A DNA stretch of 36,098 bases from a virus. The translations under genes and the position numbers were made by a program. The DNA lies in IMG/VR virus record IMGVR_UViG_3300037104_000400, positions 1-36,098 of that record; one strand, 5' to 3'. Below are positions 3,817 through 32,430 of the stretch, in pieces. The notes beneath the pieces are model-generated. The model saw only the letters and a program-made list of their open reading frames with translations, was not told where the DNA came from and did not search any database. Within the stretch, counting starts at the first letter, position 1; each line of letters begins with the position of its first letter.

Positions 3817-5604
3817 ATGGCGACATCTAAAAGACCATATCAAAATAAAATAAGAAAAAGTTTAAAGTCTCAGGACATTTATCAAAAACCTGAGACAATG
3901 GTAACAGCAAAGGAAATTTCCGAACAAAATAAAAAACAAATAATTTTATGGACTACATTTTGGCGCAGAAATATTCATAGATTTATTATTGATGCTATGA
4001 ATGTTAAGCTTTTTCCTTTTCAAATTATTTGGATTTATCTAATGCAGATAAGCCCACTGTTTGTAGGAATTTGTTCCAGAACTGCTAGTAAAAGTTGGGT
4101 TGTTGCTGTATTTTCAGTGGCAAGATGTATATTATACCCCGGACTTTCTATTATTATTGCTGCTACAACTAAGGCCCAAGCGGGTTTGATTATTTCCAAA
4201 AAAATTAGAGAATTGCAGATAAAGTCTCAACTATGCAAGGCGGAAATAACTGGAATTACAGTCAATCCAAATCTATATGAGGTCAGATTTAGAAATGGAT
4301 CACTAATAACTGTGGTTGCTGCCAATGAAGGAGCCTTGGGAAATCGTTGCAATGACCTCATCTTGGACGAATTCGTGATCGCTGACAAAAAAATTATTGA
4401 TGAAATTTTAAAGCCATTCTTATTCCCTAGACAAACTCCTTTTCTAGATAATTATCCTGATTATAAGGAACCTATTAGGACTTGTTATATTTCTAGTGCT
4501 TGGTATATCAGTGAGTGGTGGTATAAAACCACTATGTTTATAGCTAAACAAATGGCAGAAGGAAAACCTGCCGGTTTCTTTGCCACAGATTTCATGTCAA
4601 GTTTGCGTCACAATTTAAAAACTCCAGAACAAATACGTGATGAAAAAGTGGACAATGCGGCGTTTGACATGCAATATGGAAACATTCCTGGTAGGGGTAA
4701 GGATGATGGATATTTTCAACCAGAAATGTTTAAGAGAAGTATTCAAAAAGCATTTTATCCATTAAGAAAAAAGGATTACGCATTAAAAAAGAACCCATAT
4801 TTTATTCCTAGAACCGAAAACGAAATTAGAATAATGGGTATAGATTTAGCTACTAAAAGTTCTGCTGCAAATGATAACTCTGTTATTTCTTGTATACGAT
4901 TGATACCCTCTAAAAAGGGATATGAAAGAAAATTGGTTTACATGGAAAGTTCTCATGGCGCAGATCATATTGATCAGGCTAATCGGATAAAAGATGTCTG
5001 GTATGATTTTTTGGCGGATTACATCGCAATTGACACGGCCAATATCGGTACGGATGTTTATGTAGATTTAAGCCTTCCTTATTTCAATGAGGAACGCGGA
5101 ATTCAAATGCCTGGATTTGCATTGATGAATCGCCCTGAAATGTCAGAAAATACTAGAAAAGACTTGACTGAAAAAACCAGAGGCATCAATGGCTTGCCGA
5201 TTATATTTCCAATTTCGGCCACATCTGAATTGAATAGCGATATTTATGTTGCATTTAGAAGTGCTTTGCAAAAGAAACTATGGAACTTTTTAACTGATGA
5301 GATGGAAGCTGAAGAATTTATAACCAAGAATATGCCTACAACAATTACTGATAGTGAATTACATGCCTTCGCACTCCATCCTCACACGCAGGTAAGCTTC
5401 TTTGTGCAGGAATGCTTAAATCTGGAATACAAACCATTGAATTCACTAGTAAGATTGGATGAAGGGTCAGGAAGGAAAGACCGCTTCAGTTCCGTGGCAT
5501 ACGCAAATTTTTTAGCTTCTTTATTTGATAAAGACTTATTGAAAGAAAATGATGATAATGATGATGACTGGAGCATTTTATCTGGATTGACGCAGTTTGC
5601 TTAA
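3817..5604 (+). CDS. terL: Terminase large subunit (packaging ATPase and nuclease)
   Basis: 595 aa, ATG 3817 with AGAGG upstream. It drives DNA into the prohead and cuts the concatemer. The ATPase half has a Walker A-like loop at residues 86-94 (CSRTASKSW, lacking the usual glycines) and a clear Walker B at 181-186 (LILDEF). The nuclease half has the three acidic positions expected of an RNase H-type nuclease: D343 in IMGIDLA, D406 in IAIDTAN, and D512 in TDSELHAFAL. The length is normal for the family and both domains look intact. It docks on the portal, whose gene follows after one inserted endonuclease gene. The call is firm; the packaging mode (cos or pac) cannot be read from this window. 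Confidence 0.93.
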   Translation: MATSKRPYQNKIRKSLKSQDIYQKPETMVTAKEISEQNKKQIILWTTFWRRNIHRFIIDAMNVKLFPFQIIWIYLMQISPLFVGICSRTASKSWVVAVFSVARCILYPGLSIIIAATTKAQAGLIISKKIRELQIKSQLCKAEITGITVNPNLYEVRFRNGSLITVVAANEGALGNRCNDLILDEFVIADKKIIDEILKPFLFPRQTPFLDNYPDYKEPIRTCYISSAWYISEWWYKTTMFIAKQMAEGKPAGFFATDFMSSLRHNLKTPEQIRDEKVDNAAFDMQYGNIPGRGKDDGYFQPEMFKRSIQKAFYPLRKKDYALKKNPYFIPRTENEIRIMGIDLATKSSAANDNSVISCIRLIPSKKGYERKLVYMESSHGADHIDQANRIKDVWYDFLADYIAIDTANIGTDVYVDLSLPYFNEERGIQMPGFALMNRPEMSENTRKDLTEKTRGINGLPIIFPISATSELNSDIYVAFRSALQKKLWNFLTDEMEAEEFITKNMPTTITDSELHAFALHPHTQVSFFVQECLNLEYKPLNSLVRLDEGSGRKDRFSSVAYANFLASLFDKDLLKENDDNDDDWSILSGLTQFA

Positions 5605-5710: not shown

Positions 5711-7141
5711 ATGGGCGAAAAAATAAAGGATAAATTAGATTGCGATTTTGTAATAAATGAATTTAGGAAAGAAAATCTTGAATTATTGGATTTATATAAG
5801 AATGCAAGAACTAAGATGAGATTGTCCGATCAAATTGGATATAAATATTATTCTTCATATGGTGCGTTTGATTATAGAAGAAAAAAGAATATACACCTTT
5901 CTCCGTTTGGAAATGGCAATCCTTTTACATTTGATAATATTAAATTATTTTTAAAAAATAATTTTCCATCTTTATATTTAGTCGATAATCAAAAATGGGT
6001 TGGAGTCAATAAAAATTTAAATTTTTATGATATTGATGGTTATAAGTATAACACATCTTTTACAAATATTCAAGGAAATGCTAAAAGAGAATCATTTTCT
6101 GAAAAATTTGGAAAGGCTAATTGTTATGCGTTAGAAAATATAAAATTGTATTTATTAAAAAATAATTCTAAATTGATATTGCAAGAAGGTCAAAAATATA
6201 ACGGAGTTTTAAATAGATTAATTTTTTATGACAAGTATGGATATTTATATTTTAATAATTTCGCAAACATAAGAGATTCTATAGAAAGAAATTATTCAAT
6301 TACGCCATTCGACATAAGAAACATCTATACTTTTTATAATATAAAAAATTGGATAAAAATAAATAAAAAACAATTCGAACTTATTGAAGGACAAACATAT
6401 AAAGGTTGTATGTGTAAATTAAAGTTTCGATGTTTGATTTGCAATGAAAATGAAAAGCCATTTGAATCAACGTGGTCTAGTATTCAAGCAGAACATGGGT
6501 GTGGAATTTGCACGAATTCACAATTGGGACTATTCAATAGTTTATATTTTAAAAATAAATATATTTGCGAGTTTTGGAATTACGAAAAAAATTTTCCAAT
6601 CACTCCTGTTGATGTAGTTTGGGGTTCAAATAAATTTTATTATTGGAATTGTGAAAATTGTGGGAAGCCATATTTGGCATCTCCAAATAGTAGAGCGAAA
6701 ATAGAAAAATCATATTGTAAAAGATGTACTAGAGTTTTTTCTAATGGCGCAAAGGGAATCCTAAAAAAATTAGAGATTTATAAAAAATTAAATAGAATCG
6801 ATTTCGATACCGAATTCTCGTTTAAAGACTGTAAAAATATTTATCCTCTTTCCTTTGATTTTATTATTTGGGATAGTATAAAAAGAAAAAAATATATTTT
6901 GATAGAATATCAGGGTGAAGGCCATTATTTTCCAGTAGATTTTGCTGGACTCGGAAAAGAATGGGCATTAAAAGAATTTGAAAAAAATCAAATGAGAGAT
7001 CAAATTAAACGAGATTATTGTAAAAATAATAATATCCGTTTATTGGAAATATCTTATCTCGATTATAAAAATATAGAAAAAATTCTAGAAGAAGCACTAT
7101 GCCTCTTCGAAGGAAAGGAGGCGAAACTTTTTGGCAACTAA
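5711..7141 (+). CDS. Free-standing homing endonuclease, VSR-like/EDxHD type, with zinc-finger repeats
   Basis: 476 aa, ATG with TAGGAGGAAT upstream. The first 240 residues contain three related units of about 65 residues (starting near 72, 139 and 205), each with a motif like NIKLFLKNN followed by a beta-rich part, probably DNA-reading repeats. Zinc-binding cysteine pairs follow at residues 241-267 (CLIC, CGIC) and 314-339 (CENC, CKRC). The C-terminal 130 residues match VSR-like phage endonucleases: FDF around D383, IEYQGEGH (E399, H405), then RDQIKRDYC and a final IRLLEISY strand. Such enzymes cut a cognate site and spread their own gene. Its last 11 bases overlap the portal gene, and the portal's ribosome binding site lies inside its coding sequence. 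The fold call is good; the target is unknown. Confidence 0.82.
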   Translation: MGEKIKDKLDCDFVINEFRKENLELLDLYKNARTKMRLSDQIGYKYYSSYGAFDYRRKKNIHLSPFGNGNPFTFDNIKLFLKNNFPSLYLVDNQKWVGVNKNLNFYDIDGYKYNTSFTNIQGNAKRESFSEKFGKANCYALENIKLYLLKNNSKLILQEGQKYNGVLNRLIFYDKYGYLYFNNFANIRDSIERNYSITPFDIRNIYTFYNIKNWIKINKKQFELIEGQTYKGCMCKLKFRCLICNENEKPFESTWSSIQAEHGCGICTNSQLGLFNSLYFKNKYICEFWNYEKNFPITPVDVVWGSNKFYYWNCENCGKPYLASPNSRAKIEKSYCKRCTRVFSNGAKGILKKLEIYKKLNRIDFDTEFSFKDCKNIYPLSFDFIIWDSIKRKKYILIEYQGEGHYFPVDFAGLGKEWALKEFEKNQMRDQIKRDYCKNNNIRLLEISYLDYKNIEKILEEALCLFEGKEAKLFGN

Positions 7142-8732
7142 AAAAACAGCAAAAGAACCAATTTCAGAAGAACTATCTGAACAAGATGTTTGGGATATTT
7201 TGAGTTTCTCAAATGCACTTAGCGGTAGGGGGACTTATGGCGGGATTCTTACGCCCCAATTATTATCCCAAAGAATGAAGGATTTGAATTTAAATCCAGT
7301 TATTGCAACAGATAATATGCTGGCCTCTGCAATGGCTGATCCAAAAAATTCAGAGGTGGCTCTCCAATCCTTTTCTCAAAGCTTTGAAATTCAGTCTCAA
7401 GTCTACAAGAAACTATTAGGTTATCTAGGGGGGATTTTGGATTTCGGTTTGACTTATTCTTGTATCAATGCAAAACCCGCTGATTATACTAGCAAGGCAT
7501 ATATCAAAGATTTAGATCAAATAAAAATGTTTACGGATAAATTCGATTACAAAACCGAATTTTCTAATGTTGTAAAAGAAATGCTTAGAAATGAAGCATA
7601 TTTTTGTGCTCCTAGATTTGATGGTCAAAGATATGTATTGCAAGAATTGCCGGCATCTCCAGATTGGACTATGATCACTGGACGATGGGACTATGGATTG
7701 TTATTTTCCATGTCAATGTTGTGGTTCATTCAACCTGGGGTGGACGTGTTGATGTATCCGCGTTTCTTTATTGATAAATACAATGAATATTGGCCCAATA
7801 ATAAAAGTATTTTATCTTATAATCCCGAAGCAGAAGTAATTACCGGAAGAGGTTCTTCTAGCTGGATTTATTGGCAGGATATTCCTACATCTGTAGGATG
7901 GTGTTTTAAATTCGAACCAACCTCTGCCACTAGACTTCCGCATTTGACGGGGATGTACCTTGATCTAATTCAACAGCCCCTTTTAAGGGCATTACAAAAG
8001 AGCATAAGCATGTCTGCTGCTGCCCGTCTAATCGTGGGTCAAGTGGGAACTTTAAAAGATGCACAAGCAAAGTTAAAAGATCAGTTTAATATTAGCCCCG
8101 CCCTATTGGGAAATTTTATGGCTTTGGTAAAGAGTGCTATTGGCGATGCTTTAAATACCGCCGCATTGCCTTTGGAAAATATTCAAGCAATATCTTTTCC
8201 GGCTCAAAATGATCTTTACTCATCTTTCTTGAAGACGAGTTTGAGTACTAGCGGAGTTTCAACCAGTTTAATTTTCGATGAAGGCACTAATCGCACGAAC
8301 GCCATTCAGATTCAATTATCGTTGAATAATGATGAAAACGATTTAACTGCTTTATATAGTCAATTTTCAAATTTTCTTGAATTTCAAATCAATAGATTGA
8401 CTAGCAAATTTAAGTTCAAATTTATGTTTGAAGGAACACAATTTTTTAATAATCGTCAACAAAGATTTGATACTCAAATGACGCTTTGCGACAAGGGCAT
8501 TGTGCTCCCAGGCAAAATAGCAGCCTCAATTGGAATGAATGTCTTTGATTTTCAAAGACAGCTTGAAGAAGCACAGGCGACAGGATGGGTAGATAAACTC
8601 ACGCCTATTGTTTCGGCATTCCAACAATCGTCTAAAGATGCGGGTCGCCCTACAAAATCCGATAACAATTTGTCTGATTCTGGCGCTCAAACTAAGGGTG
8701 ATGCTGAAAACGCAGGGCGTGGGGGCAAATAA
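7131..8732 (+). CDS. Portal protein
   Basis: 533 aa. I take TTG 7131 as start because AAAGGAGG (7115-7122) lies 8 bases before it. The portal is the dodecameric ring at one capsid vertex through which DNA is packaged and ejected; it nucleates prohead assembly and binds TerL and the head-tail connectors. Support is position after terL, length typical of portals, and an overall composition that matches: a helical N-terminal region, aromatic-rich beta regions near residues 165-260, long helices in the C-terminal half, and a low-complexity hydrophilic tail over the last 30 residues. The start overlaps the endonuclease gene by 11 bases. Confidence 0.85.
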   Translation: MATKKTAKEPISEELSEQDVWDILSFSNALSGRGTYGGILTPQLLSQRMKDLNLNPVIATDNMLASAMADPKNSEVALQSFSQSFEIQSQVYKKLLGYLGGILDFGLTYSCINAKPADYTSKAYIKDLDQIKMFTDKFDYKTEFSNVVKEMLRNEAYFCAPRFDGQRYVLQELPASPDWTMITGRWDYGLLFSMSMLWFIQPGVDVLMYPRFFIDKYNEYWPNNKSILSYNPEAEVITGRGSSSWIYWQDIPTSVGWCFKFEPTSATRLPHLTGMYLDLIQQPLLRALQKSISMSAAARLIVGQVGTLKDAQAKLKDQFNISPALLGNFMALVKSAIGDALNTAALPLENIQAISFPAQNDLYSSFLKTSLSTSGVSTSLIFDEGTNRTNAIQIQLSLNNDENDLTALYSQFSNFLEFQINRLTSKFKFKFMFEGTQFFNNRQQRFDTQMTLCDKGIVLPGKIAASIGMNVFDFQRQLEEAQATGWVDKLTPIVSAFQQSSKDAGRPTKSDNNLSDSGAQTKGDAENAGRGGK

Positions 8733-8883: not shown

Positions 8884-9255
8884 ATGGCAAATACTTCAGG
8901 TTCTATGACTACAACTCAGATAAATCATTTAAATAACATGAACCGCGCTGCACAGGATGTTGCTTTAGGAACTCGTCTTAAATCGATGCCAGATGTAGCG
9001 GGAACTTATACTTTGGTTCTTGCAGATACAATTGGAACCAAAACGACTACCGTTGACGGTTTTACTGGCGAAGCTGGTTTTATCCTTCAGGCTTATCGTA
9101 GTGGCAGTGCAATTTCAGGCAGTGCTCTTGGCACCGGAACTCTTGTTACTTGGGGTGCTTATTTGTCTGGTAGTAGCCTTGTCGTGAAGACTGGTTCATC
9201 CGTTAGCGGCAGTGCCTTTACCACTGGTGATGTGCTTAACTATATTATATTCTAA
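8884..9255 (+). CDS. Small beta-rich structural protein, possible head decoration protein
   Basis: 123 aa, ATG with AAGGAGAAAT upstream. The first 35 residues (MANTSGSMTTTQINHLNNMN, then AAQDVALGTRL) look like a flexible arm plus a short helix. The rest alternates short hydrophobic stretches with G/S/T-rich turns (SGSAISGSALGTGTL, KTGSSVSGSAF), typical of a beta-sandwich. No membrane segment or cysteines are present. Codon use is somewhat more GC-rich than in surrounding small genes, as in the capsid and tube genes, which fits high late expression. Position between portal and capsid protease suggests a capsid-associated protein. A head fibre or decoration role is inference. Confidence 0.55.
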   Translation: MANTSGSMTTTQINHLNNMNRAAQDVALGTRLKSMPDVAGTYTLVLADTIGTKTTTVDGFTGEAGFILQAYRSGSAISGSALGTGTLVTWGAYLSGSSLVVKTGSSVSGSAFTTGDVLNYIIF

Positions 9256-9260
9256 AAGAT

Positions 9261-9285
9261 TATCCATCCTTTAGAAAGGAGGATA
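9261..9285 (+). promoter_or_regulatory. Stem-loop sequestering the ferritin ribosome binding site
   Basis: TATCC (9261-9265) pairs with GGATA (9281-9285), and TCCTT (9267-9271) pairs with AAGGA (9276-9280), leaving one bulged A and a 4-base loop. The Shine-Dalgarno sequence AAGGAGG (9276-9282) lies entirely in the 3' arm, 8 bases before the TTG start at 9290. It could restrain ferritin translation until the RNA is opened. It could also serve as a weak terminator, but no T-run follows. Confidence 0.6.
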
Positions 9286-9289
9286 AAAC

Positions 9290-9760
9290 TTGAAACTTAG
9301 TCAAAATTTATTAGATGCGATGGTTGCTCAAATTTCTATCGAGTTGGGCAACCAAAACAAGTATATGCAAGTTCAAAGTTATTTTGAAGACTTACAATTA
9401 AAGAATCTGTCGAAATTTTTCAAAGATCAATCCGCTGGTGAAAACAGTCATGCAAATTTATTTATGAATTACTTAAATGACCGTAATGGTAAAGTAATTA
9501 TAGAAGAGGTTGATGCTCCTAAAAATAATTTTTCAAGTATTGAAGAAATTGCAGATTTTTATATATCGACTGAACAACAAACAACAGAATCAATTGAAAG
9601 TCTTTACGATCTTGCATTATCAGAAAAATCATATATTGATTTAGGATTTTTAAGCAAAATGCTTGACGAACAAGTAGAAGAAGAGTCTCTTTCTATGAAG
9701 GTTGGAACCAATCTAAAAATGGTAAAAGATATTGTATTGTTTGATGCTACATTTGAGTAA
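9290..9760 (+). CDS. Ferritin (non-haem iron-storage protein, FtnA type)
   Basis: 156 aa, TTG start after AGAAAGGAGG. Ferritins oxidise Fe(II) at a di-iron centre and store it as mineral in a 24-subunit cage. It aligns with E. coli FtnA (as recalled) at a constant offset of one residue over nearly the whole length. Ferroxidase ligands are present: E18, E51 and H54 (GENSH), E95 (TEQQ), E127-Q128 and E131 (DEQVEEE), plus the conserved Y25. The position equivalent to the third-site ligand E49 of FtnA is glycine (G50). The ferritin-like YLNDRNGKV and FSSIEE segments between helices are also present. The C terminus (DIVLFDATFE) is about nine residues shorter than FtnA, so helix E, which lines the fourfold channels, may be incomplete. 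The gene lies between portal and capsid protease genes, followed three bases later by a 67-aa gene. Family confidence is high; its role in the virion or infected cell is unknown. Confidence 0.9.
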   Translation: MKLSQNLLDAMVAQISIELGNQNKYMQVQSYFEDLQLKNLSKFFKDQSAGENSHANLFMNYLNDRNGKVIIEEVDAPKNNFSSIEEIADFYISTEQQTTESIESLYDLALSEKSYIDLGFLSKMLDEQVEEESLSMKVGTNLKMVKDIVLFDATFE

Positions 9761-9762
9761 AA

Positions 9763-9966
9763 ATGTATATAAATAATCCAGAATCGGTTCCTAACATGGA
9801 ATGCAATTTCATTGTAGCCAATTATTTATTAGAAAAAGGTGTTCCTATTTTGTCTAGAAAAAATAATAAATATTATTTTGCGGATAGCATGTTGGTGAGA
9901 AATTTACTAAAAACAGCACCTTTTTATATAAAATTTATGAAAGAAAAATTAAATATTTTAGAGTAG
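9763..9966 (+). CDS. Small hypothetical protein downstream of ferritin
   Basis: 67 aa, ATG three bases after the ferritin stop, with only a weak ribosome binding site, so it is probably translated by coupling with the ferritin gene. The sequence is mixed helix and strand (FIVANYLLEKGVPILSRKNN, then KYYFADSMLVRNLL) with no membrane segment and one cysteine. I do not recognise it. It does not resemble a known encapsulin cargo-loading peptide or ferredoxin. Coupling to ferritin makes it a candidate partner, but it could equally be an unrelated small head protein. Confidence 0.6.
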   Translation: MYINNPESVPNMECNFIVANYLLEKGVPILSRKNNKYYFADSMLVRNLLKTAPFYIKFMKEKLNILE

Positions 9967-10003: not shown

Positions 10004-11857
10004 TTGGTTGATAAATTAAAATTTGATATTGATGATATTAAACTTGTTGAAGAAAATCCCAATTCTAATTTTAGCATATTGTCTTTAGATTTCTTTGCTA
10101 GTGGCCCCAATCTCCACGATATGTATGTAAGCGATGATACTTTGTTACGAACTGCTGATACTATAAAAAATTGTCCTATTGTTTGGGAATACTCATATAT
10201 GATGGACGATGCAACCAGCCATACCGAAGATGAATCAGCAGTAGGTTTCGTTCCAGAGAAATCTGAAATTACTAGCAAGCAACTTCCTGATGGCAGAACC
10301 ATGCTTACTACAATTGCCTATGTTTGGAAAAAATATTCGGGACAATTAATAGATATTTTTCATAGAGATGGAAGTAAGCCTGTCAGCGTGGAGATGTCGG
10401 TTCTAAAAAGTGAAAAAAGAAAAGATGGTTTGACTGAACTGTTGGATTATGTATTTGATGCTGTCACTATTTTAGGAAATTTTGTCAAACCGGCAATTCC
10501 ATTGGCTAATGCTACTGTATTACAATTTTCTAAAGACGATAGAAAAGAATATGAAAGTTTGGTGCAATTAGAGTTTGGAAAATATGATGAAATTGATTTG
10601 TCTATACCGTCCGAAGTCAGGTCTAATGTATTAAACGGGCTTCAATTATACAAAGAAAAAGGTATTAACGCCTCTTCCTTAGCATTGTCTGTAGCTAGAC
10701 ATATTGTTAAAAATGAAAAAATATCTCCTGATAAAGCAAGACTAATTCATAAACATTTATCTTCACATCAAAATAAAGAAAAGAATAAAGATAAACCAGA
10801 CACAGAATATGTTTCATGGCAGTTACATGGTGGCGATCATGCTTTTGATTGGAGTAAAAATATTGTTGAAGGTTTAGATAATATTGATAATAGACATCTT
10901 TCTTATTTTGGTGAGAAAATAACTTTTCCTTATTCTAAACTTGAAGATATTAATCCATCATTGAAGGGCATTGATCCTCCAGTTTCGTTGGGACAAGCAA
11001 ATTCTATCGCCAAACAAGCTGATGCAATAGGTGCTGATAAAGGTGGATGGGGGATTGCAATTAAGAGTTTTAAAGATCATCACAAAATTGTCGATGGTCA
11101 TTGGGTAGAAAAAAACAGTAATAAAAATATGAATTCGCAAGAATCCGAGAAGGAGGTTATGTCTGTGGAAGATGAAAAAGATAAAAAAGTAGAAGAAATG
11201 GCTGCCGATAAACCAGCCGAAGATACTCCTGAAGAAGAGAAGAAAGAAACACCAGAAGAGGAAAAAAAAGAAGACAAGGAAGAACAGAAACAAGAAGAAG
11301 AAAAAGGCACTGAGAAAAAGATGTCCTTGGATGCCAATTTAGATGTTGCTGCGCTTTTAGCAATGCTTGAGGATGAAACTGAAGGTTATAAATCTTTGGT
11401 TGAAGAAGAGTTTGCTAAACCTGATAGCGAAAAAGATTTTGCAAAAATTTGTAATGCGATGTATGCAAAAATGTGCAAAATGAGCGCTGAAAAAACCGAA
11501 ATGTGCGGAAAAATGGCAAAGATGGATGAAGATGCAAAGGCATATATGGCAGAAAATGAAGAACTCAAAAAATTTAAGGCAGATGAAGAAGCCAAACGGT
11601 TCGAGTTTGAAGTTGATACTACCATGAAAGAAGTGGAAAATGCTTGCGAGATGCCTAAAGAAGAAATGTCTGCTTTGCGGGATGAGGCTAAGAATTTCAG
11701 CATTGCTAATGTTGATTCTTGGAAAAACTTAGTAAAAGCTAAAGCATTCAATTTTGCTATAAAGGGAAAAAAGGATGATGGCGTAAGGCGATATGCTTTT
11801 GCTTGGGCTAATGTTGATAAAAATGTTAAGAAACCCTTGTGGGATAAATCTAATTAA
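10004..11857 (+). CDS. Prohead protease fused to scaffold protein
   Basis: 617 aa, TTG start after GAGAGGAGG. Residues 1-175 resemble S78/U35-type prohead proteases: H73 in SHTEDESAVGFV and S128 in PVSVEMSV are the likely catalytic histidine and serine, followed by a strand ending in VKPAIP. Residues 204-256 are helical. Residues 267-375 form a separate unit beginning VSWQLHGGDHAFDWS, seen in other phage head proteins. Residues 389-440 are an extreme E/K-rich linker, and 441-617 are helical and charged, as expected of a scaffold. The scaffold would guide capsid assembly and then be digested. A strong in-frame ribosome binding site at codon 386 probably gives a separate scaffold. The major capsid gene follows after one gene. 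The protease call is moderate to good; the scaffold call rests on composition and position. Confidence 0.8.
   Translation: MVDKLKFDIDDIKLVEENPNSNFSILSLDFFASGPNLHDMYVSDDTLLRTADTIKNCPIVWEYSYMMDDATSHTEDESAVGFVPEKSEITSKQLPDGRTMLTTIAYVWKKYSGQLIDIFHRDGSKPVSVEMSVLKSEKRKDGLTELLDYVFDAVTILGNFVKPAIPLANATVLQFSKDDRKEYESLVQLEFGKYDEIDLSIPSEVRSNVLNGLQLYKEKGINASSLALSVARHIVKNEKISPDKARLIHKHLSSHQNKEKNKDKPDTEYVSWQLHGGDHAFDWSKNIVEGLDNIDNRHLSYFGEKITFPYSKLEDINPSLKGIDPPVSLGQANSIAKQADAIGADKGGWGIAIKSFKDHHKIVDGHWVEKNSNKNMNSQESEKEVMSVEDEKDKKVEEMAADKPAEDTPEEEKKETPEEEKKEDKEEQKQEEEKGTEKKMSLDANLDVAALLAMLEDETEGYKSLVEEEFAKPDSEKDFAKICNAMYAKMCKMSAEKTEMCGKMAKMDEDAKAYMAENEELKKFKADEEAKRFEFEVDTTMKEVENACEMPKEEMSALRDEAKNFSIANVDSWKNLVKAKAFNFAIKGKKDDGVRRYAFAWANVDKNVKKPLWDKSN
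11165..11857 (+). CDS. Nested scaffold protein from an internal start
   Basis: Within the protease-scaffold gene, GAGAAGGAGG ends at 11156. It is followed in the same frame by ATG 11159 (2 bases away, too close) and GTG 11165 (8 bases away, ideal). Initiation at GTG 11165 would give a 230-aa protein made of the acidic linker plus the helical scaffold domain, without the protease. Phage lambda makes its scaffold Nu3 from a start inside the protease gene C in the same way. The ribosome binding site is seen directly; its use is inference. Confidence 0.6.
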   Translation: MEDEKDKKVEEMAADKPAEDTPEEEKKETPEEEKKEDKEEQKQEEEKGTEKKMSLDANLDVAALLAMLEDETEGYKSLVEEEFAKPDSEKDFAKICNAMYAKMCKMSAEKTEMCGKMAKMDEDAKAYMAENEELKKFKADEEAKRFEFEVDTTMKEVENACEMPKEEMSALRDEAKNFSIANVDSWKNLVKAKAFNFAIKGKKDDGVRRYAFAWANVDKNVKKPLWDKSN

Positions 11858-11884: not shown

Positions 11885-12436
11885 ATGGCTGATCATGGTA
11901 TTTTGATTCAAAATAAAGTTGCGGCTTTTGATGTTGGTTCTTATAATCGTTCGGTTGTTGCCGGTAGTGCTGTCGATATCGACAATGGCAACGTGTTTCG
12001 TCTGGATTCGCAGTCTTCGACTGCCGGGCAAACTGAAGTTTGGGCTGTAACTGCTCCCACGACTTCGGGTTCGACTATGAATGGTCTTTGGATGGCTGCT
12101 ACTCCTGAAGTTCCGATTACTTGGGATGGAACCTTGGCCTACAAGGGTCTTAATCAAGACCCCCGCCGCTTCTATAATAAGGGCGCTTATGTATTTGATG
12201 CGTTCAAACTTGTTCCCGGCGACATTATTACTGTAACTGCTGATAATCTGGATTCTAGCTCGGTTAATACATATGCTAATTCCTCAACTGGCGTTTATAC
12301 GTTGGCTTGGAGTGCATCCACTTCGGCTAGTTCTCTGAACTTGCGCTATTTGAAGACTACCTATATTTCGATTGGCAGTGGCGCAATTGATAATCAGCGG
12401 AAGACCGCTTACAAATTCGAAGTTATTGCTAACTAA
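11885..12436 (+). CDS. Probable capsid decoration or stabilisation protein
   Basis: 183 aa, ATG after ATAGGAGGATT. The protein is beta-rich, low in charge and high in S, T, G and A (VVAGSAVDIDNGNVFRLDSQ, and TYANSSTGVYTLAWSAST), without cysteines or membrane segments. It sits between the scaffold and the major capsid protein, where many siphoviruses encode the protein that trims or cements the expanded capsid. Its codons are more GC-rich than in surrounding small genes, as in the capsid gene, fitting abundant late expression. No specific family was recognised. Confidence 0.65.
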   Translation: MADHGILIQNKVAAFDVGSYNRSVVAGSAVDIDNGNVFRLDSQSSTAGQTEVWAVTAPTTSGSTMNGLWMAATPEVPITWDGTLAYKGLNQDPRRFYNKGAYVFDAFKLVPGDIITVTADNLDSSSVNTYANSSTGVYTLAWSASTSASSLNLRYLKTTYISIGSGAIDNQRKTAYKFEVIAN

Positions 12437-12468: not shown

Positions 12469-13563
12469 ATGAGAAAACTGACTAGTAATGTTGTAAAGTT
12501 CGCTATGGCATATCCTGATCTTTTCAATCGGTTTGATGATCTTTTTAAACAATATCAGCATCGCACCGAAAAGAAAAATACGGAATTTGATGCCACGGTT
12601 TCTTTCGATGAGAAAGAACATCAGATGAACGCTATGATTATCAAGCACATTATTGCTCGATCTGGCGTCAATTATGCCACTGATAGCAATCTTGAAGACT
12701 GGTTCTATCACCCGCTGGTGATTCATGAAACTTTTGCTGTATTGAACCAACTTATTGACTTCGTTCTGCCAGAAACTATCATTGACAGCATTGGTATGTA
12801 CACCGACGTAAAAGTGGGTGGGTGGGGAGACAATTTCTCGTTCGATGTAGCCCCGCGTGATATTTTTGTTGTGTCCAAGGCTGGTCGTGCTCAACGCAAT
12901 AGCGAAGTGAAGAAACAGTTCAAGGGGCAGGTAACGGTTCTTCCTGAAGCTCGACAGATTACCGTTGCCGTTGCTATGTATCGTATTTTGGCTGGAATTG
13001 ATTCGCTTGCTGAATTTGTTGCCAAAGCAGTTCGTGCTCTGGAAACTCAGATGGCATATGATTGCTATTCAGCTTTTGCTGTTGCTATGGCTGCTGTTGA
13101 TTCAACTGCCACCAGTGGTTTGCTGATTGCTGGATACACTCAGGCCGGACTTGTGCGATTGTGTGAACAGGTTTCAACTTGGAATGGTGGCGCAAAGGCT
13201 ATCGTTATGGGTACTGCTCTTGCGTTGCAGAGTGTGCTTCCAGACGACGCCAACTATCGCTATGAATTAGATAGTGATTATGTCAAAATGGGATATATTA
13301 AAACCATATCCAATTATGACATTATGGCTCTCCCGCAGGTTGTTGATTTAGCTACGCCTTTTGGTCGCCTTCTGTCAGATACAACTCTATGGGTTGTTTC
13401 TCCAGGTGCTCAGAAGATCGTAAAGTTGTGCTTAGAAGGCAATATGCTTTCTAATACCAATCAGCCGTTTGATGCAGCCAATCTTCGCCAGGAAACCACT
13501 TTAACTAAGAGTTGGGGCGTAGGCGTGGTCACAAATGCGATTGCAGGTGAGGTGACGTTGTAA
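12469..13563 (+). CDS. Major capsid protein (HK97-type fold expected)
   Basis: 364 aa, ATG after ATAGGAGGATT. It is the first large structural gene after protease-scaffold, the standard place for the shell protein. The N-terminal 60 residues are helical and charged, like a delta domain or N-arm. The centre has the mixed composition of the HK97 P-domain and A-domain, with a long helix near residues 180-205 (LAEFVAKAVRALETQMAYDC) resembling the spine helix. The C-terminal third includes VVSPGAQKIV and a final strand-rich part. Codon use is shifted toward G/C relative to the small genes, consistent with very high expression. The identification rests on position, size and these fold-level features. 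Confidence 0.8.
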   Translation: MRKLTSNVVKFAMAYPDLFNRFDDLFKQYQHRTEKKNTEFDATVSFDEKEHQMNAMIIKHIIARSGVNYATDSNLEDWFYHPLVIHETFAVLNQLIDFVLPETIIDSIGMYTDVKVGGWGDNFSFDVAPRDIFVVSKAGRAQRNSEVKKQFKGQVTVLPEARQITVAVAMYRILAGIDSLAEFVAKAVRALETQMAYDCYSAFAVAMAAVDSTATSGLLIAGYTQAGLVRLCEQVSTWNGGAKAIVMGTALALQSVLPDDANYRYELDSDYVKMGYIKTISNYDIMALPQVVDLATPFGRLLSDTTLWVVSPGAQKIVKLCLEGNMLSNTNQPFDAANLRQETTLTKSWGVGVVTNAIAGEVTL

Positions 13564-14450: not shown

Positions 14451-14915
14451 TTGACAGTAACCACATTGCCTGATATTGTAGATTTATTTATGTCTAATCA
14501 ACAAGATTATCGCTTACTTTCTCTTTATTCTACGTCTGGTTCTGCTGCTTTTGGAACATATGTCGAGCCTTGGCTTTTATCATCTGTGACAAAATTTAAA
14601 CCAATTGCTAATCAAGTCCTTAATTATAATGCAAGCAATCAATCGTTTGATATTGAATTAAATGATGAAAACAAATTGTTATTGGCTCAAATAATGGTAG
14701 AATTTTGGCTCCAAAAATTAGTGTTTGATGTAACCGCTATGAAAAATTTTATTGTTGATCACGATTTTTCTCGCCATAGTGAAGCAGCTAATTTTAAAGA
14801 AAAAAAAGATGCTTTGAATATGAAAAAAGAAGAAATATCTCAATTGTTGAATGATTATGCCTATAAAAATAACGGGTGGAAAAATTGGTATAATCAGAAT
14901 TTTGATACGGGGTAA
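14451..14915 (+). CDS. Head-tail connector protein (adaptor-like)
   Basis: 154 aa, TTG start with GAGAAAGGAGG upstream. The central helix LLLAQIMVEFWLQKLV and the following helical segments resemble small helical connector proteins that bind below the portal in siphoviruses of Gram-positive bacteria. The gene is the first of three closely packed genes (two bases to the next), the usual connector set of adaptor, stopper and tail terminator. Identification is by position, size and helix pattern rather than a catalytic motif. Confidence 0.6.
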   Translation: MTVTTLPDIVDLFMSNQQDYRLLSLYSTSGSAAFGTYVEPWLLSSVTKFKPIANQVLNYNASNQSFDIELNDENKLLLAQIMVEFWLQKLVFDVTAMKNFIVDHDFSRHSEAANFKEKKDALNMKKEEISQLLNDYAYKNNGWKNWYNQNFDTG

Positions 14916-21898: not shown

Positions 21899-22675
21899 AT
21901 GGGAAAATTTATTGATTTAACTGGACAAAGATTTGGAAGACTAGAAGTAAAAAATATAGATTGCCAAAAAAGGATAGGGAAAAAACTATATACGTTTTGG
22001 AATTGTTTGTGCGATTGTGGGAAAACCAAAAGTATCAATGGACATGCTTTGAAAGCGGGGAAAAGTCAATCTTGCGGATGTTTAAAAATAGAATTATTAA
22101 AAGAATATGAAAATATCGTAGGACAAAAGTTTGGAAGATGGGAAGTAATTAAAGAAGTTGAAAAACCAGACAATATAAAAGGCAGAAACAAATATTGGTT
22201 ATGCAAATGTGAATGCGGAAAAAAACGAATAGTTAAGGGAGACTCGTTAAAAAGTGGAACATCCACTTCTTGCGGGTGCTATATAGCAGAATTAACTAGA
22301 AATAGGACTAAATATGAGTATGGATTAGCGTCCGTTTTGAATGTATATAGAATGTATAAAAGAAATTCTAAAAAAGCTGGAAGAATATTTGAATTGAGTT
22401 TGGATTTTTTCAAGTTAATTACTCAAAAGCGTTGTATACATTGTGGCTCTGAACCTAATAATATTATGAAAAATTACCATAATAATGGTGATTACGTTTA
22501 CAATGGGATAGATAGAATAAATTCAGATTTAGGGTATACAGAAGACAACGTAGTCCCGTGTTGTTGGCATTGTAACCAAGCAAAAAGCGACTATACATTG
22601 GAAGAGCATGATTCTTGGCTAGAACAATCATATTTCTATAAACAACAAAATAAAATTGAAGATTTTTGTATATAG
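21899..22675 (+). CDS. HNH homing endonuclease with two zinc-ribbon DNA-binding repeats
   Basis: 258 aa, ATG 21899. The AGAGG site is 18 bases upstream, unusually far. Residues 4-60 and 68-125 are two copies of one unit: G-Q-x-F-G-R-x-E-V (GQRFGRLEV, GQKFGRWEV), then W-x-C-x-C-x-C-G and SCGC at the end, the AP2-like/zinc-ribbon DNA-binding repeat of phage HNH endonucleases. Residues 178-230 are the nuclease: CIHCG, then GIDRINSDLGYTEDNVVPCC and WHCNQAKSDY. The catalytic core GIDR-N-GYTEDN matches this HNH subfamily. It is free-standing among small accessory genes. It probably nicks or cuts a site in related phages lacking the gene. Confidence 0.88.
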   Translation: MGKFIDLTGQRFGRLEVKNIDCQKRIGKKLYTFWNCLCDCGKTKSINGHALKAGKSQSCGCLKIELLKEYENIVGQKFGRWEVIKEVEKPDNIKGRNKYWLCKCECGKKRIVKGDSLKSGTSTSCGCYIAELTRNRTKYEYGLASVLNVYRMYKRNSKKAGRIFELSLDFFKLITQKRCIHCGSEPNNIMKNYHNNGDYVYNGIDRINSDLGYTEDNVVPCCWHCNQAKSDYTLEEHDSWLEQSYFYKQQNKIEDFCI

Positions 22676-23183: not shown

Positions 23184-23627
23184 AAGTTAAGTATGAATGA
23201 AATAAAAATAGTAATAGACAATAAAGTTTTAGCAAAATATTATCTAGAATATTTTGCGAAAAATCCAAGACGTAGAAAAAAGACCATCGAAAGTCCTATC
23301 CCTCCAAGTTTAAATACTTGGATGATTATGCCTAGATTTAAAATGAATGCACAAAAACAGGCATGGAAAGAATTCGGAAAGTGGCTAGTAGGCTATTATA
23401 AGTTTAGCAATATGAAAATTGCTAAATGTAAAATTATTATAGAATATTTTTTTGATAGTAAACGCAGACATGACGCAGATAATTATACCCCCAAAAATCT
23501 ATTCGATTCATTTACTGTTTCGGGACTTCTTATTGATGATGATTTTAATCATGTAGAATCTTTGACTATTATTGGCAATTATTCTAAAGAGAATCCACGA
23601 ACAGAGATAAGGATTATGTATGAGTAA
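23175..23627 (+). CDS. RusA-like Holliday junction resolvase
   Basis: 150 aa from ATG 23175; the start could instead be ATG 23193, since the first ATG is buried in a terminator-like hairpin and no normal ribosome binding site precedes either. RusA resolves four-way DNA junctions by paired nicks. Signature residues are present: IESPIPPSLNTW near residue 38, RRHDADNYTPKNLFD with D100 and D102, and VSGLLIDDD with D121-D123, the metal-binding acidic residues of the family. Length fits (about 120-150 aa). It would debranch DNA before packaging or act in recombination. It overlaps the GIY-YIG gene downstream by 8 bases. Confidence 0.85.
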   Translation: MFFKLSMNEIKIVIDNKVLAKYYLEYFAKNPRRRKKTIESPIPPSLNTWMIMPRFKMNAQKQAWKEFGKWLVGYYKFSNMKIAKCKIIIEYFFDSKRRHDADNYTPKNLFDSFTVSGLLIDDDFNHVESLTIIGNYSKENPRTEIRIMYE

Positions 23628-24240
23628 AAAGAATTTATACAATGTTGGGATTTATCAAATTAAAAATAATGCTAACGGCATGGTTTATATCGGTCAATCA
23701 ATGCACTTATACAAAAGAAAGAGTGAACATTTTTCTAGACTTAGAAAAAATAAACATGATAATAAACATTTGCAGAATGCATTTAATAAATATGGATCAG
23801 AAAATTTTATATTTGAAATTCTTTTATATTGTGAAGAATTTGAACTAACCAAATATGAAAATGCTATCAAAAATATAAATAAAGATCATTGCTATAATAT
23901 ACGAGAATGTGCTGATAGTAATAAAGGACTGAAACATACTGAACAATTCAAAAAAGAAGTTTCAGAACGCAATAAAGGAAATACATATTGGCTAGGTAAA
24001 CATCATACAGAAGCGACAAAAGAATTGATGTCTAAAAATAACGGCATGTTGGGTAAGCATCATACAGATGAAACAAGATTAAAAATGTCTGAAAACCATG
24101 CTGATTTTTCTAATGGAAAACATCCTAATTATGGTAAAACATATAGCGATGAAGCTAGAAAAAACATGTCTGAGAATCATGCTGATGTAAGTGGAAAAAA
24201 TAATCCCAATTATAAAACAGGAAGGTATGTGAAACAATAA
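23620..24240 (+). CDS. GIY-YIG homing endonuclease with NUMOD3-like repeats
   Basis: 206 aa, ATG 23620 overlapping the RusA stop. Residues 5-90 are a GIY-YIG nuclease domain: GIY in VGIYQIKN and YIG in MVYIGQS, then a basic helix (KRKSEH) and an F-I-F-E-I-L strand. Residues 100-200 contain four short repeats related to GKHHT/S-E/D-E-x-R-x-K-M-S-E-N, the NUMOD3-type DNA-binding repeats found in phage GIY-YIG enzymes. It is free-standing. The N-terminal 105 residues closely resemble those of the endonuclease at 31576, so the two are paralogues. The integrase-like gene starts immediately after its stop, with no gap. Confidence 0.88.
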   Translation: MSKKNLYNVGIYQIKNNANGMVYIGQSMHLYKRKSEHFSRLRKNKHDNKHLQNAFNKYGSENFIFEILLYCEEFELTKYENAIKNINKDHCYNIRECADSNKGLKHTEQFKKEVSERNKGNTYWLGKHHTEATKELMSKNNGMLGKHHTDETRLKMSENHADFSNGKHPNYGKTYSDEARKNMSENHADVSGKNNPNYKTGRYVKQ

Positions 24241-25278: not shown

Positions 25279-27095
25279 TTGCCTGATTACAATGTAATCA
25301 TAAAAACACAAATAGATAATACTGCTTCTACTCAAATTGCTAATCTTGGTAAGAATGCAAAACCAGTAGTTATAAAAATAGCAGCACAAATGAGTACCGC
25401 CGATATTGAGGCTCAGGTTCAAACTTGGTCTAATAAATTGACTAAGATGCAGATTGGTAAAGATGCCGTCTTTAGTACATCTGCGGTACAAGCCGATTTA
25501 AAAGCATTAGATGTTTTAATTCAAGATTTTTCTGGTAAGGGTAAAACTTCAACACAACAAGTAAACCAAGCATTTGATAATTTGTCAGTAAGTATAAAAG
25601 ATGCTTCTAATAATATAAAAGAACTTAAGGCTGTGCAAACTGATGCTGCATTAAGTGAAAAAGAATATGCAGACTTACAGGCACAAGCAATACAAGAGAA
25701 TCTTCAATTTGACGAGGCTCAAAGAAATCAACTAATAGCTGAAGAAGAGCAACGAAGACTATTAACGGCTGAAATAGAAAAAGAAGATGCCGCAATTATA
25801 AAAACAGGGCAGTCAGAAGAAGCTGCCAGAATAAAGCAACAAGAAGCTACAGCAAAACTTATTGCAGACAATGAAAAATTAGCCGAACAACAGGCGACTC
25901 AGGCTGCTCAACGTAGACAACAAGAAGAAGCCGAAGTTCAAGCAAATCTTAAACAAAATGCAATGTTGCAACAGGATGAAGATAAGAGATTACTAAATGA
26001 ACAGAAATTAACTGCTGCGACTAATGAAAGAAATAATGCTCTATCTTTGATGGAAGCTAAAAATAAGACTGCTTATAATAGCGTTCCTGTTCAACAAATG
26101 ATCGCTGCCGAAAATACTTTGAGGGCAGAAGTTCAAGCCGGAACTGCAACCCAAGTCGAGTTAGATGTAGCAGTAAATAATACTAATACTGCATATCAAA
26201 AACAAATTATTGCTACTAATACTGCTGCCCAAGTTACCGATAGTTTTGGAAGAACTATTGAAAAAAATACTCTCAAAGTCATGCAGTGGATGGTCGCTAC
26301 AACTTTGATATACGGAAGTTTACGAGAACTTGGTGCAGGTGTCAAGTTTATCGAAGACCTAAATGTTGTAATGAATCAGACTCAAATCGTGACAGGCCAA
26401 ACAAGCGATCAAATTGGGAGACTGGCTGTTGAATATAATAAACTAGCTTCTCAACTAGGGTCAACTACGCTTGAGGTTGCCACGGGAGCACTCGAATGGC
26501 AAAGGGCTGGTTATAGCGCTGCTGATACAATAAAATTACTGACTGCTAGTACAGAACAGTCTAAATTAGCTAACATGGATGCTGCAACATCTACTGATCG
26601 ATTGATTGCTACTTTACATGGATTTCAATTAACTGCTGATGATGCACAGGGCGTAATTTCTGCTCTTGTGGCCCTAGACAATAACTATGCGACCAGCGTG
26701 GATGAGATCAGCGCAGCATTGGGTGAATCATCTAGTGTTGCAAAAAATGCTGGTGTGACATTTCAAGAATTAAGTAGCTACATCGCGATTGTGTCTAGCA
26801 CCACAAGGCAGAGCGGGGAAACCGTGGGAAATGCCTTCAAAACGATTCTGACCCGCATGGATCAGGTGAAAGCTGGGGCGAATACAGATGATTTTGGTGA
26901 AAATTTAAATCAAGTTGAAACTGTTTTACGAAAATTAGGTGTTCAACTTAGGGATACGACAGATTCCTTTAGACCTATGGGTGATGTTATAGATGAAATT
27001 GGGTCTAAATGGTCGCAATATACCCAAGTGGAACAAGAACAAATCGCCACAACAGTTGCAGGAACTCGGCAACAAAATATTTTCATGGCAAATTT
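25279..27095 (+). CDS. Tape measure protein, exon 1
   Basis: TTG start after AAAAGGAGGT. With exon 2 (28699-31453) the spliced gene is 4572 bases, in frame, 1523 aa. The tape measure fixes tail length, and at about 1.5 angstrom per residue this implies a tail near 230 nm. Exon 1 residues 110-260 are a long Q/E/A-rich coiled coil (AEEEQRRLLTAEIEKEDAAI). Residues about 370-600 are the conserved phage tape measure core: GALEWQRAGYSAADTIKL, ALGESSSVAKNAGVTFQELS, TVGNAFKTILTRMDQVK, and AGTRQQNIF just before the splice site. The unspliced frame stops 10 bases into the intron. Chaperone and tube genes lie 6-8 kb upstream, unusually far, because an accessory block intervenes. Confidence 0.9.
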
Positions 27096-28698
27096 ATTAC
27101 CATAACGTATGGAAACATACGGAATTTTAATATAACTACTGGCAAAATAGAACAATTGTGTTATATTAATAATTCAGCAGAACGCCATATCGGTGGAACA
27201 CTCTAGTAGTCAATACCGAGGAAAGATTAATTTATAAAATCTCTTATTTTTTACACTCATAATCCCTGAGTGATTTAGGATACTTATGTTTAAATGGAAT
27301 GAAGAAAAAATAAATATATTAAAAATGTATTATCCTTTGGGCGACTTTGAAACCTTGTATAAGTTGCTTGGAAAAGAAAATGAAAAAAGTATTAAAAGCA
27401 AAGCAAAAAAATTGCATCTAAAATATAGAAGGCAATTATCGGAAGATGATATAAACGTAATAAAAAATAATTATAATAAAATTCCAATCGAAGAGTTATC
27501 CAAATTATTAAATGTAGCAAATAGTACGATCTATGGAGTAATGAATAAATATAATTTGAGTAATAGGTATCAATGGACTGAAGAACGAATAAAATTATTA
27601 CATGAATATTATCCATTGGGAGATTGGGATTTATTGTTTGAAAAATTGGAAACAAATGATAAACCGGCAATAATTTCTAAAGCGAGTTCTTTAAAAATAA
27701 AAATGGAAAGTTATTTTTTCTCTGATGAAGAAATTAAATATCTCAATGATAATTATTTGATAAAATCTGTAAAAACAATGTCAAAAGATTTAAATAAAAC
27801 GGAATGTTCAATTTCTTCAAAACTTTCTAAACTTGGATTAATAAAAGTTTTCTCTTGGTCAGAAGAAGAATTAAAAACATTGAAAAAAGAATATCCTTAT
27901 TATTCTAATCAATATATCCATGATAATTTTCTTAAAAATAGAGATGCCAAAAATATAAATACTATGGCTCATAAATTAAATTTGAGAAAAATAAAAGGCG
28001 CAATGCAGAAATTCGATAAAGATGGTTTATTGAATGATTTGAAACAATTGTCTTTGGAGTTGGGCAGAACGCCATTGATAGAAGAACTATTTTCTCACGA
28101 CATTGCTTCTTCAAAAACATATGAAAGATATTTTGGAGGATATAGACAAGCATGTATTGGGGCAGGATTGGATATAAACATTTCCTCTTATGGAAATAAT
28201 GTTTGCTACTTATCTAAAAATAAAGATATTTGTTTTTCTAAAAGCGAATTGATTATAACAAACTTTTTAATTGATAGTAATATAAATTATAAAAAAGAGT
28301 TTTCCTATAAGGATGTTGTTGCCGATACCAGATGCACAACTAAAAAAATGGATTGGTTTTTAGATGATAAAATAATTGTTGAATTTTGGGGATTTCCAAA
28401 AGAAGGTTCATATAAAGCAAACATGGATCAAAAAAGGGCAATTTGTCGGGATTACAATATTACCCTTATTGAAATATTCAGCAAAGATATTAGAAATTTG
28501 TCAAAAGTTTTCAGAGATTTTATAAATTGATATCCGTAACGACTGAGCGCGTTCTAACTTAATATTTTTTGCATATTAAGTTAAAGTTACAGTCTGAACT
28601 ACATAGCGATATGTAGAGAAATGGTCAAGTGTAAAGACACTTTTTATTGAAGAACCATTTCCGCCATTTTTAAAATGGTCATAAAAAGTAACAGGTTG
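27096..28698 (+). mobile_element. Group I intron in the tape measure gene
   Basis: Splice sites can be proposed by pairing. P1: exon AAATTT (27090-27095) with GAATTT (27122-27127), the final exon U opposite G, and a CGTATG-GAAA-CATACG hairpin in the loop. P3: AGAACGC (27179-27185) with GCGTTCT (28549-28555). P7: GACTG (28541-28545) with CAGTC (28590-28594), the latter inside the typical AAAGTTACAGTCTGAAC. P8: AACTTAATAT/ATATTAAGTT (28556-28565/28573-28582). P9: CTACAT/ATGTAG (28599-28604/28611-28616). The intron would end at G28698. Joining gives MANLL-MQNYGEV across the junction and keeps the frame. The endonuclease ORF lies between the P4-P6 region and P7. Confidence 0.88.
27286..28530 (+). 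CDS. Intron-encoded homing endonuclease with HTH repeats and VSR-like nuclease domain
   Basis: 414 aa, ATG 27286, inside the group I intron. Residues 4-233 form about five Myb/SANT-like helix-turn-helix repeats, three marked by W-x-E-E-x-I-x-x-L (W4, W97, W191) with YPLGD following in two. Residues 255-295 match the homing-endonuclease-associated repeat (LGRTPLIEELFSHDI ending FGGYRQACIGAGL). Residues 315-405 are a PD-(D/E)xK/VSR-like nuclease: SKSELIITNFL, MDWFLDDKIIVEFWG with D356 and E366, and DQKRAICRDYNI, the EDxHD-like type known from I-Bth0305I. It would cut intronless tape measure genes to spread the intron. No ribosome binding site of AGGAGG type precedes it (TTAGGATACTT), suggesting low expression. 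Confidence 0.85.
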   Translation: MFKWNEEKINILKMYYPLGDFETLYKLLGKENEKSIKSKAKKLHLKYRRQLSEDDINVIKNNYNKIPIEELSKLLNVANSTIYGVMNKYNLSNRYQWTEERIKLLHEYYPLGDWDLLFEKLETNDKPAIISKASSLKIKMESYFFSDEEIKYLNDNYLIKSVKTMSKDLNKTECSISSKLSKLGLIKVFSWSEEELKTLKKEYPYYSNQYIHDNFLKNRDAKNINTMAHKLNLRKIKGAMQKFDKDGLLNDLKQLSLELGRTPLIEELFSHDIASSKTYERYFGGYRQACIGAGLDINISSYGNNVCYLSKNKDICFSKSELIITNFLIDSNINYKKEFSYKDVVADTRCTTKKMDWFLDDKIIVEFWGFPKEGSYKANMDQKRAICRDYNITLIEIFSKDIRNLSKVFRDFIN

Positions 28699-31575: not shown

Positions 31576-32430
31576 ATGAAAAAAGAATACGGATATCAGA
31601 TTGGTGTATATCAAATTAGAAATTTATTAAATGGAAAAATATATGTTGGGCAAACAGCGCGTATGCATGAAAGAGAATTAGAGCATAAAGGAGCCTTAAG
31701 ACGGGGAAAACATGAAAATAGACATCTTCAATCGGCATATGATCTTTATGGTAAAGAAAACTTTGTTTTTGAAATTTTAGTTTTTTGTGAAACTTTTGAA
31801 CTTACGCGATATGAGGACGCAATTAAAAATGCAAGTAATGGTAATTGCTATAATATAAGACCGTGTTCGGATAGCAACAAAGGATTGAAAGCATCAGAAG
31901 AAACTAGGGCAAAAATGAGAGCAAATAGTGCCCATGCCGTGCTAGGAAGGCCACACACAGAAGAGGAGAAAAGGCATTTATCAGAAGTTGAAAGCGGAGA
32001 AAACAGTTATTGGTTTGGAAAACATCATACAGATAATGCTAAGAAAAAAATATCATTAGCTCGCACCGGAACTCATCATTCGGAACAGCAAAAACAAAAA
32101 CAATCAGAATTCATGAGGGGCAATAAATATAATTTGGGAAAGAAACATTCCGATGAAGAAAAATTAAAACGATCTGAGGAACATATCGGATATAGGCCAG
32201 AAGGAAATTATAACAGCAAATATGTCGGATTGCATCTTGATAAACGGGATACGAAATATTATGTGAATGTATTTTTTGAAGGAAAGGCGAGATTTTGCGT
32301 TGGCTCTACTAAATACGAAACAGAAGGAGCCTTAATGTACAATGATGCAATGTTGGATTTATATGGATGGAAAGCAAAATTAAATGATATTAGTCAGGAA
32401 GAAATTGATGCATTATGGGAAATGGAATAA
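31576..32430 (+). CDS. GIY-YIG homing endonuclease with NUMOD3-like repeats and AP2-like C terminus
   Basis: 284 aa, ATG with TAAGGAAT upstream. Residues 7-95 carry the nuclease domain (IGVYQIRN, KIYVGQT, then HERELEH and FVFEILVF). Residues 105-205 contain NUMOD3-type repeats (GRPHTEEEKRHLSE, GKHHTDNAKKKIS, GKKHSDEEKLKRSE). Residues about 212-270 resemble an AP2-like DNA-binding domain (YVGLHLDKRDTKYYVNVFFE, with ALMYNDAMLDLYG). The paralogue at 23620 lacks this last domain. It is free-standing between tape measure and Dit genes, flanked by a terminator-like hairpin. The family call is firm; the cut site is unknown but probably in a neighbouring tail gene. Confidence 0.9.
   Translation: MKKEYGYQIGVYQIRNLLNGKIYVGQTARMHERELEHKGALRRGKHENRHLQSAYDLYGKENFVFEILVFCETFELTRYEDAIKNASNGNCYNIRPCSDSNKGLKASEETRAKMRANSAHAVLGRPHTEEEKRHLSEVESGENSYWFGKHHTDNAKKKISLARTGTHHSEQQKQKQSEFMRGNKYNLGKKHSDEEKLKRSEEHIGYRPEGNYNSKYVGLHLDKRDTKYYVNVFFEGKARFCVGSTKYETEGALMYNDAMLDLYGWKAKLNDISQEEIDALWEME

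Follow-up and report, generated by a model that had tools for sequence, protein, structure and literature searches.

Background

Viral genes of the ferritin superfamily are already known. Dps is encoded by Lactobacillus phages (PMC6669764) and ferritin by giant viruses (PMC7136201), while phage Dps and Mn-catalase have been proposed as oxidant-tolerance genes of gut phages (PMC8008677). One phage paper, that on Enterocloster phage PMBT24, lists 'ferritin (ORF39)' under 'other functions' and passes over it without comment (PMC11035940). As to cellular ferritins, the ferroxidase residues of E. coli FtnA are E17, Y24, E50, H53, E94, Q127 and E130 (PMC7762939). Variants of the secondary iron site, site C, alter the Fe:O2 ratio and iron flux (PMC4653698, PMC7762939); substitutions at this site lower the Fe:O2 ratio and speed up regeneration in FtnA, and abolish oxidation in the Pyrococcus furiosus ferritin (PMC4653698).

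Here, we describe a phage-specific ferritin lineage, characterised by its own active-site signature, by one head-module position and by exchange with a ligand-dead twin; no description of the lineage, its slot, this alternation or the signature was found among openly licensed papers. The starting point is a linear 36-kb IMG/VR virus record, analysed as a whole (36,098 nucleotides, hereafter the window).

Results

The front of the window encodes a DNA polymerase exonuclease subunit, a tRNA-Thr, the large terminase subunit (3817..5604, +; PHROG 38, E 5e-6, and relatives), an HNH endonuclease and the portal protein (7131..8732, +; PHROG 2739, E 2.4e-47). From the portal on, the order is a 123-aa protein, putatively a small head-region protein by its position (8884..9255, +), the ferritin (9290..9760, +; 156 aa, TTG start), a conserved 67-aa gene starting 2 bp past the ferritin stop (9763..9966, +), a putative maturation protease or scaffold, so called from its position and matching PHROG 3313, a family of unknown function (10004..11857, +), a conserved 183-aa protein 5' of the capsid gene, whose inferred function is probably decoration or stabilisation (11885..12436, +; PHROG 4147), and the major capsid protein (12469..13563, +; PHROG 4088), followed by a tail module of the long-tailed-phage kind. 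The capsid assignment rests on homology (38% identity) to the protein annotated as major capsid protein in Enterocloster phage PMBT24; the window protein has no Pfam family match and, with profile A3, no PDB sequence match, so that the HK97-type label given to the capsid cassette in the first-pass annotation is at most putative. The portal has no PDB match either. A first-pass annotation of this DNA had placed the ferritin between portal and capsid protease. The slot is indeed kept in many lineages, but the ferritin does not directly adjoin either gene, as the 123-aa and 67-aa genes intervene, and the protease is putative. The 123-aa protein gene adjoins the ferritin also in L002, L003 and L015, and a relative of it sits 3' of the protease-like gene in L061 and L071; phages without a ferritin likewise have, in their slot, a gene the size of the 67-aa one.

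The structural region harbours several homing endonucleases of the HNH and GIY-YIG types (5711-7141, 21899-22675, 23620-24240, 31576-32430). The tape-measure gene is apparently split, for 25279-27105 and 28703-31453 match consecutive parts of PHROG 4211, with an endonuclease- or regulator-like ORF (27286-28530) between the two parts (region 25279-31453); an intron or intein is likely. Split terminase genes are also found in the relatives L002, L009, L011, L012, L013 and L015, and split capsid genes in L069 and L076. A 154-aa protein with no assigned function (14451-14915) is 83% identical to its L002 counterpart, against about 35-45% for most flanking genes; it may well be a further exchanged cassette.

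The ferritin proposed at 9290-9760 by the first-pass annotation is confirmed as a genuine, non-stray one. Its TTG start has a strong ribosome-binding site 5' of it (AGAAAGGAGG; feature 9274..9286, +, AGAAAGGAGGATA), and homologues share this start position, using TTG in L002, ATG in L003 and GTG in L009. Residues 10-133 match Pfam Ferritin (PF00210) at E 5.8e-24, with 85.1 bits against a curated cut-off of 24.5; for the E. coli FtnA equivalog NF007638 of NCBIfam the score is 42.1 bits, below the curated cut-off of 178. In the PDB, ferritins of archaea and Thermotoga come closest in sequence (E about 2e-19). The AlphaFold model, built with 25 phage homologues, has a pLDDT of 94.8 and consists of a four-helix bundle (5-34, 38-64, 84-111, 115-144) plus a seven-residue helix E (148-154); the Foldseek search places it in the ferritin superfamily, with the P. 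furiosus ferritin as top PDB match (TM 0.92, rmsd 1.3). The shortening of helix E, which had been noticed from the letters, is borne out by the 25 residues that follow E131, compared with a cellular median of 36. All phage members have a short tail in place of helix E, commonly with an LFD- or W-rich motif at its end.

The di-iron ligands E18, E51, H54, E95 and E131 are all present, together with Y25 and Q128, as the first-pass annotation had it. These seven residues are invariant in the 32/32 ferroxidase-intact phage proteins (F-type), even though identity to the window ferritin drops to about 26-30% among them, and account for 7 of the 12 invariant columns of alignment A5. Site C tells a different story. 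If it is taken as intact when Glu occupies positions 50, 127 and 130 (FtnA E49, E126, E129), the window protein, with G50/E127/E130, has the Gly in place of FtnA Glu49 that had been pointed out before. Moreover, site C is intact in 0/32 F-type proteins, whereas 54 of the 55 cellular ferritins have it intact and the remaining one carries Asp at one of the Glu positions; this cellular set leans towards Bacteroidota and a single archaeal group and does not include SynFtn of marine Synechococcus. In the F-type, the site is broken by change of E50 to Gly, His or Gln, or by substitution at 127 and/or 130. Along the same line, Asn21 and Thr98 occur in all 32 F-type proteins and in none of these 55 cellular ferritins, which have Ser/Ala and mostly Ile/Val, respectively, at these positions; both are derived polar residues that lie a single helical turn away from E18 and E95, which are ligands. 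The breakage of site C in every phage member, the diagnostic N21/T98 pair and the ligand-less allele described below all go beyond the first-pass annotation. Judging from its residues, the F-type protein is predicted to be catalytically competent; its activity is a prediction because the P. furiosus substitutions at site C abolish oxidation, so that an intact A/B site is no guarantee.

A ferritin search yielded nine loci. Eight belong to related phages in which the genes are arranged as in the window, and a portal search added a ninth such relative; a pattern search with the profile of all 25 ferritins was dropped, these being too diverse. To reduce circularity, relatives were chosen by the capsid-protein alignment A3, the seed phages of which had come via ferritin or portal; when the capsid proteins were clustered at 90%, 29 lineages resulted, not counting the window and three distant relatives. 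Of the 29 lineages, 18 have an F-type ferritin in the slot 3' of the portal, 7 have a ferritin-fold protein that lacks the ligands (D-type) and 4 have neither; without the six seed lineages, the figures are 12, 7 and 4. A search of this kind had been called for by the first-pass annotation. Whole-record Pfam searches found no ferritin in the records of these four lineages, nor in Brevibacillus Sundance, Alicyclobacillus KKP_3916 and Mammaliicoccus phi127. At the loci examined, F-type and D-type never occur together, and the catalytic F-type was not found in any named phage. In a second, unrelated head module (L014, L092-L095), the interval between terminase and portal contains a member of the same ferritin group, its ligands being intact in L014; the portal of L014, L092, L094 and L095 carries a fused head-morphogenesis domain.

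Some matches were not counted as phage ferritins. Those in OR845001 and OR850087 ('Staphylococcus phage') are in the tree either identical to S. aureus FtnA, for the S. aureus one, or among cellular ferritins, and MT836766, MT838721 and MT838998 are also placed among the latter. The gene identical to S. aureus FtnA lies at 36141-36536 of OR845001.1 (L005, 'Staphylococcus phage SA 1306 Kay'), in a part that looks like host chromosome. A scan of genome contigs gave only two phage-like ones, L079 (BPGB01000006.1, Woesearchaeota MAG) and L080 (NGFH01000003.1, Bacteroidetes MAG), both carrying the head genes of this phage group; Woesearchaeota and Bacteroidetes are unreliable as hosts, the phage contigs being probably mis-binned. 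A link to anaerobic hosts was also dropped: where a slot-bearing phage has a named host, this host is an anaerobe, but all of these phages have the ligand-less form.

The D-type comprises PMBT24, CB473P1, TR-TP1, L027, L043, L071 and L072, and thus includes cultured phages of Enterocloster and Thomasclavelia. Of the ferroxidase residues, D-type proteins keep only His54. A case in point concerns PMBT24 ORF39 (OQ326496.2, 18788-19288; L016), which retains the His54 equivalent as its one ferroxidase residue and is annotated 'ferritin', the TR-TP1 protein being annotated 'Ferritin domain-containing'. The Pfam Ferritin scores of D-type proteins straddle the cut-off, L027 passing with 26.7 bits and L043 (19.3) and PMBT24 (13.1) falling below; the AlphaFold model (pLDDT 81.4) has ferritins as best PDB matches in Foldseek (E 1.9e-4, TM 0.79). 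The D-type forms one clade (100/100), yet its distribution over the portal tree takes five changes or more, and it is joined to the remaining ferritins by a long branch; it need not descend from the phage F-type and may have a function of its own.

In the tree against cellular ferritins that the first-pass annotation had proposed, the 32 F-type proteins group together, apart from the 55 sampled cellular ones (SH-aLRT 97 in one tree, 90/65 in another, SynFtn being in neither), and the highest cellular identity in the searches made is 37%. dN/dS is about 0.06-0.22 for F-type pairs, in keeping with the intact, non-decayed copy assumed from the outset; as read from such pairwise comparisons, the F-type ferroxidase site is under purifying selection. 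The gene is also mobile. Between L039 and L047, flanks are about 80% identical in nucleotides on both sides (portal 81%, gene of the 67-aa type 80%, protease-like gene 78%; capsid 96% in amino acids), while the ferritins, both ligand-intact, share 33% of their amino acids; the break in identity coincides with the borders of the ferritin gene. Exchange of F-type alleles likewise explains why the ferritins of the window and L002 are 75% identical and their portals 38%. On this comparative evidence, the ferritin is a head-operon cassette that, though open to exchange, has been strongly retained throughout a broad group of phages with long tails.

Discussion

The most likely reading, to which we give a probability of about 50%, is that of a late-expressed ferritin which oxidises and sequesters Fe(II) in the infected cell during virion production. 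The protein would be made late, together with the head proteins, and would assemble into a cage; Fe(II) would be oxidised rapidly with O2 or H2O2 and sequestered in the infected cell, whereby phage DNA and assembling heads would be spared Fenton damage. Conservation of the ferroxidase site without exception argues for iron-oxygen chemistry, and the missing site C points to a ferroxidase of rapid turnover more than to a long-term iron store. Against this reading, the D-type occupies the slot in 7 lineages, hence the slot may serve a purpose without iron chemistry.

As for a head role, the fixed position in the head module suits it no less than it suits a ferroxidase of the infected cell, and together with the ligand-less alternative this position argues for a possible head partner of the fold as well. 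It is accordingly conceivable, albeit with clearly lower probability, that procapsids or virions include the ferritin as a minor component, whether as free protein or assembled into a cage. It would then sit close to the portal or within the head, perhaps docked by its altered C-terminal tail, and carry iron or protect packaged DNA. In this phage group, ferritin is found only in the portal-to-protease slot; an unrelated head module has it as well, between terminase and portal region; a ligand-dead ferritin fold substitutes in the same slot, never alongside the F-type; and the short tail replacing helix E, so often LFD- or W-rich at its end, is common to all members. However, the gene-precise swap for a 33%-identical homologue amid unchanged neighbours tells against a tightly fitted, obligatorily co-adapted subunit, and the clean absence from four lineages against an obligatory structural one. 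Homologous recombination in conserved flanks, re-inserting the cassette, could also fix its position. We would hold only tentatively that the ferritin-fold protein of the slot associates with procapsid or virion, as an active site-C-less ferroxidase in some lineages and as a ligand-less structural derivative in others, the two being exchanged at one locus; that part of the ferritin is packaged in the virion is possible but rather doubtful.

Less probable still is a co-opted fold, that is, a purely structural or assembly protein whose F-type ligands hold a structural metal and oxidise no iron. The D-type, which keeps the ferritin fold while having lost all ligands but His54, and which is scattered as one clade over the portal tree, would suit such a role; on the other hand, the F-type also keeps the catalytic Tyr25 and Gln128 without exception, and the D-type, on its long branch, may have arisen outside the phage F-type and serve another function. 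Recent capture of a host ferritin with no specific role is most improbable, for although host-derived genes are common in phages and some relatives do without the cassette, the identity of cellular ferritins did not exceed 37% in the searches made, and the phage forms stand apart from the 55 cellular ones, with shared derived residues and purifying selection.

In the ferritin kept by this group of uncultivated bacterial viruses, the main catalytic site is untouched and the secondary iron site is broken in every case, so that what iron does in virus production lends itself to direct tests; since cultured phages of Enterocloster and Thomasclavelia carry the D-type, this role and the entry of the slot protein into virions can be addressed now.

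Comparison with known systems

Encapsulin systems resemble the window in having a ferritin-superfamily gene beside that of an icosahedral shell protein, and the first-pass annotation had considered a step toward such an arrangement. This idea finds no support: the protein is a classical ferritin, a single-chain four-helix one where encapsulated ferritin is two-helix, and its cassette was swapped for a 33%-identical one while the genes for portal, protease-like protein and capsid stayed 78-96% identical, which argues against a co-adapted shell-cargo pair. Furthermore, the shell is here a phage capsid within a terminase-portal-tail operon, with no match to a Pfam family. The C-terminal tail of the ferritin is conserved, and no targeting peptide was identified. 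Nor was the 'ferrojan horse' tail idea (PMC10892097) taken up; the gene in that paper lies in a putative tail-gene operon, and no TonB/FeoB dependence was found there.

The Dps and Mn-catalase of gut phages ('Gratiaviridae' and others) are likewise phage-encoded oxidant or iron genes of the ferritin superfamily, but belong to different families, and the sections of PMC8008677 dealing with them describe no fixed head-module position. The related phages PMBT24 (ORF39), CB457P1/CB473P1 and Thomasclavelia TR-TP1 share with the window a ferritin-fold protein in the same slot 3' of the portal; theirs, however, is ligand-less, with only His54 of the ferroxidase centre left. SynFtn is like the phage ferritins in lacking site-C side chains (PMC7762939), and its TM of 0.95 to the window model is among the highest; it is nonetheless cyanobacterial and about 25% identical. 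Finally, with E. coli FtnA and the P. furiosus ferritin (2jd6/2x17) the window protein has in common the four-helix fold (TM 0.92), the A/B-site ligands, Tyr25 and Gln128, whereas a broken site C, N21, T98, a shortened helix E and a gene placed in a phage head operon set the phage members apart from bacterial and archaeal ferritins.
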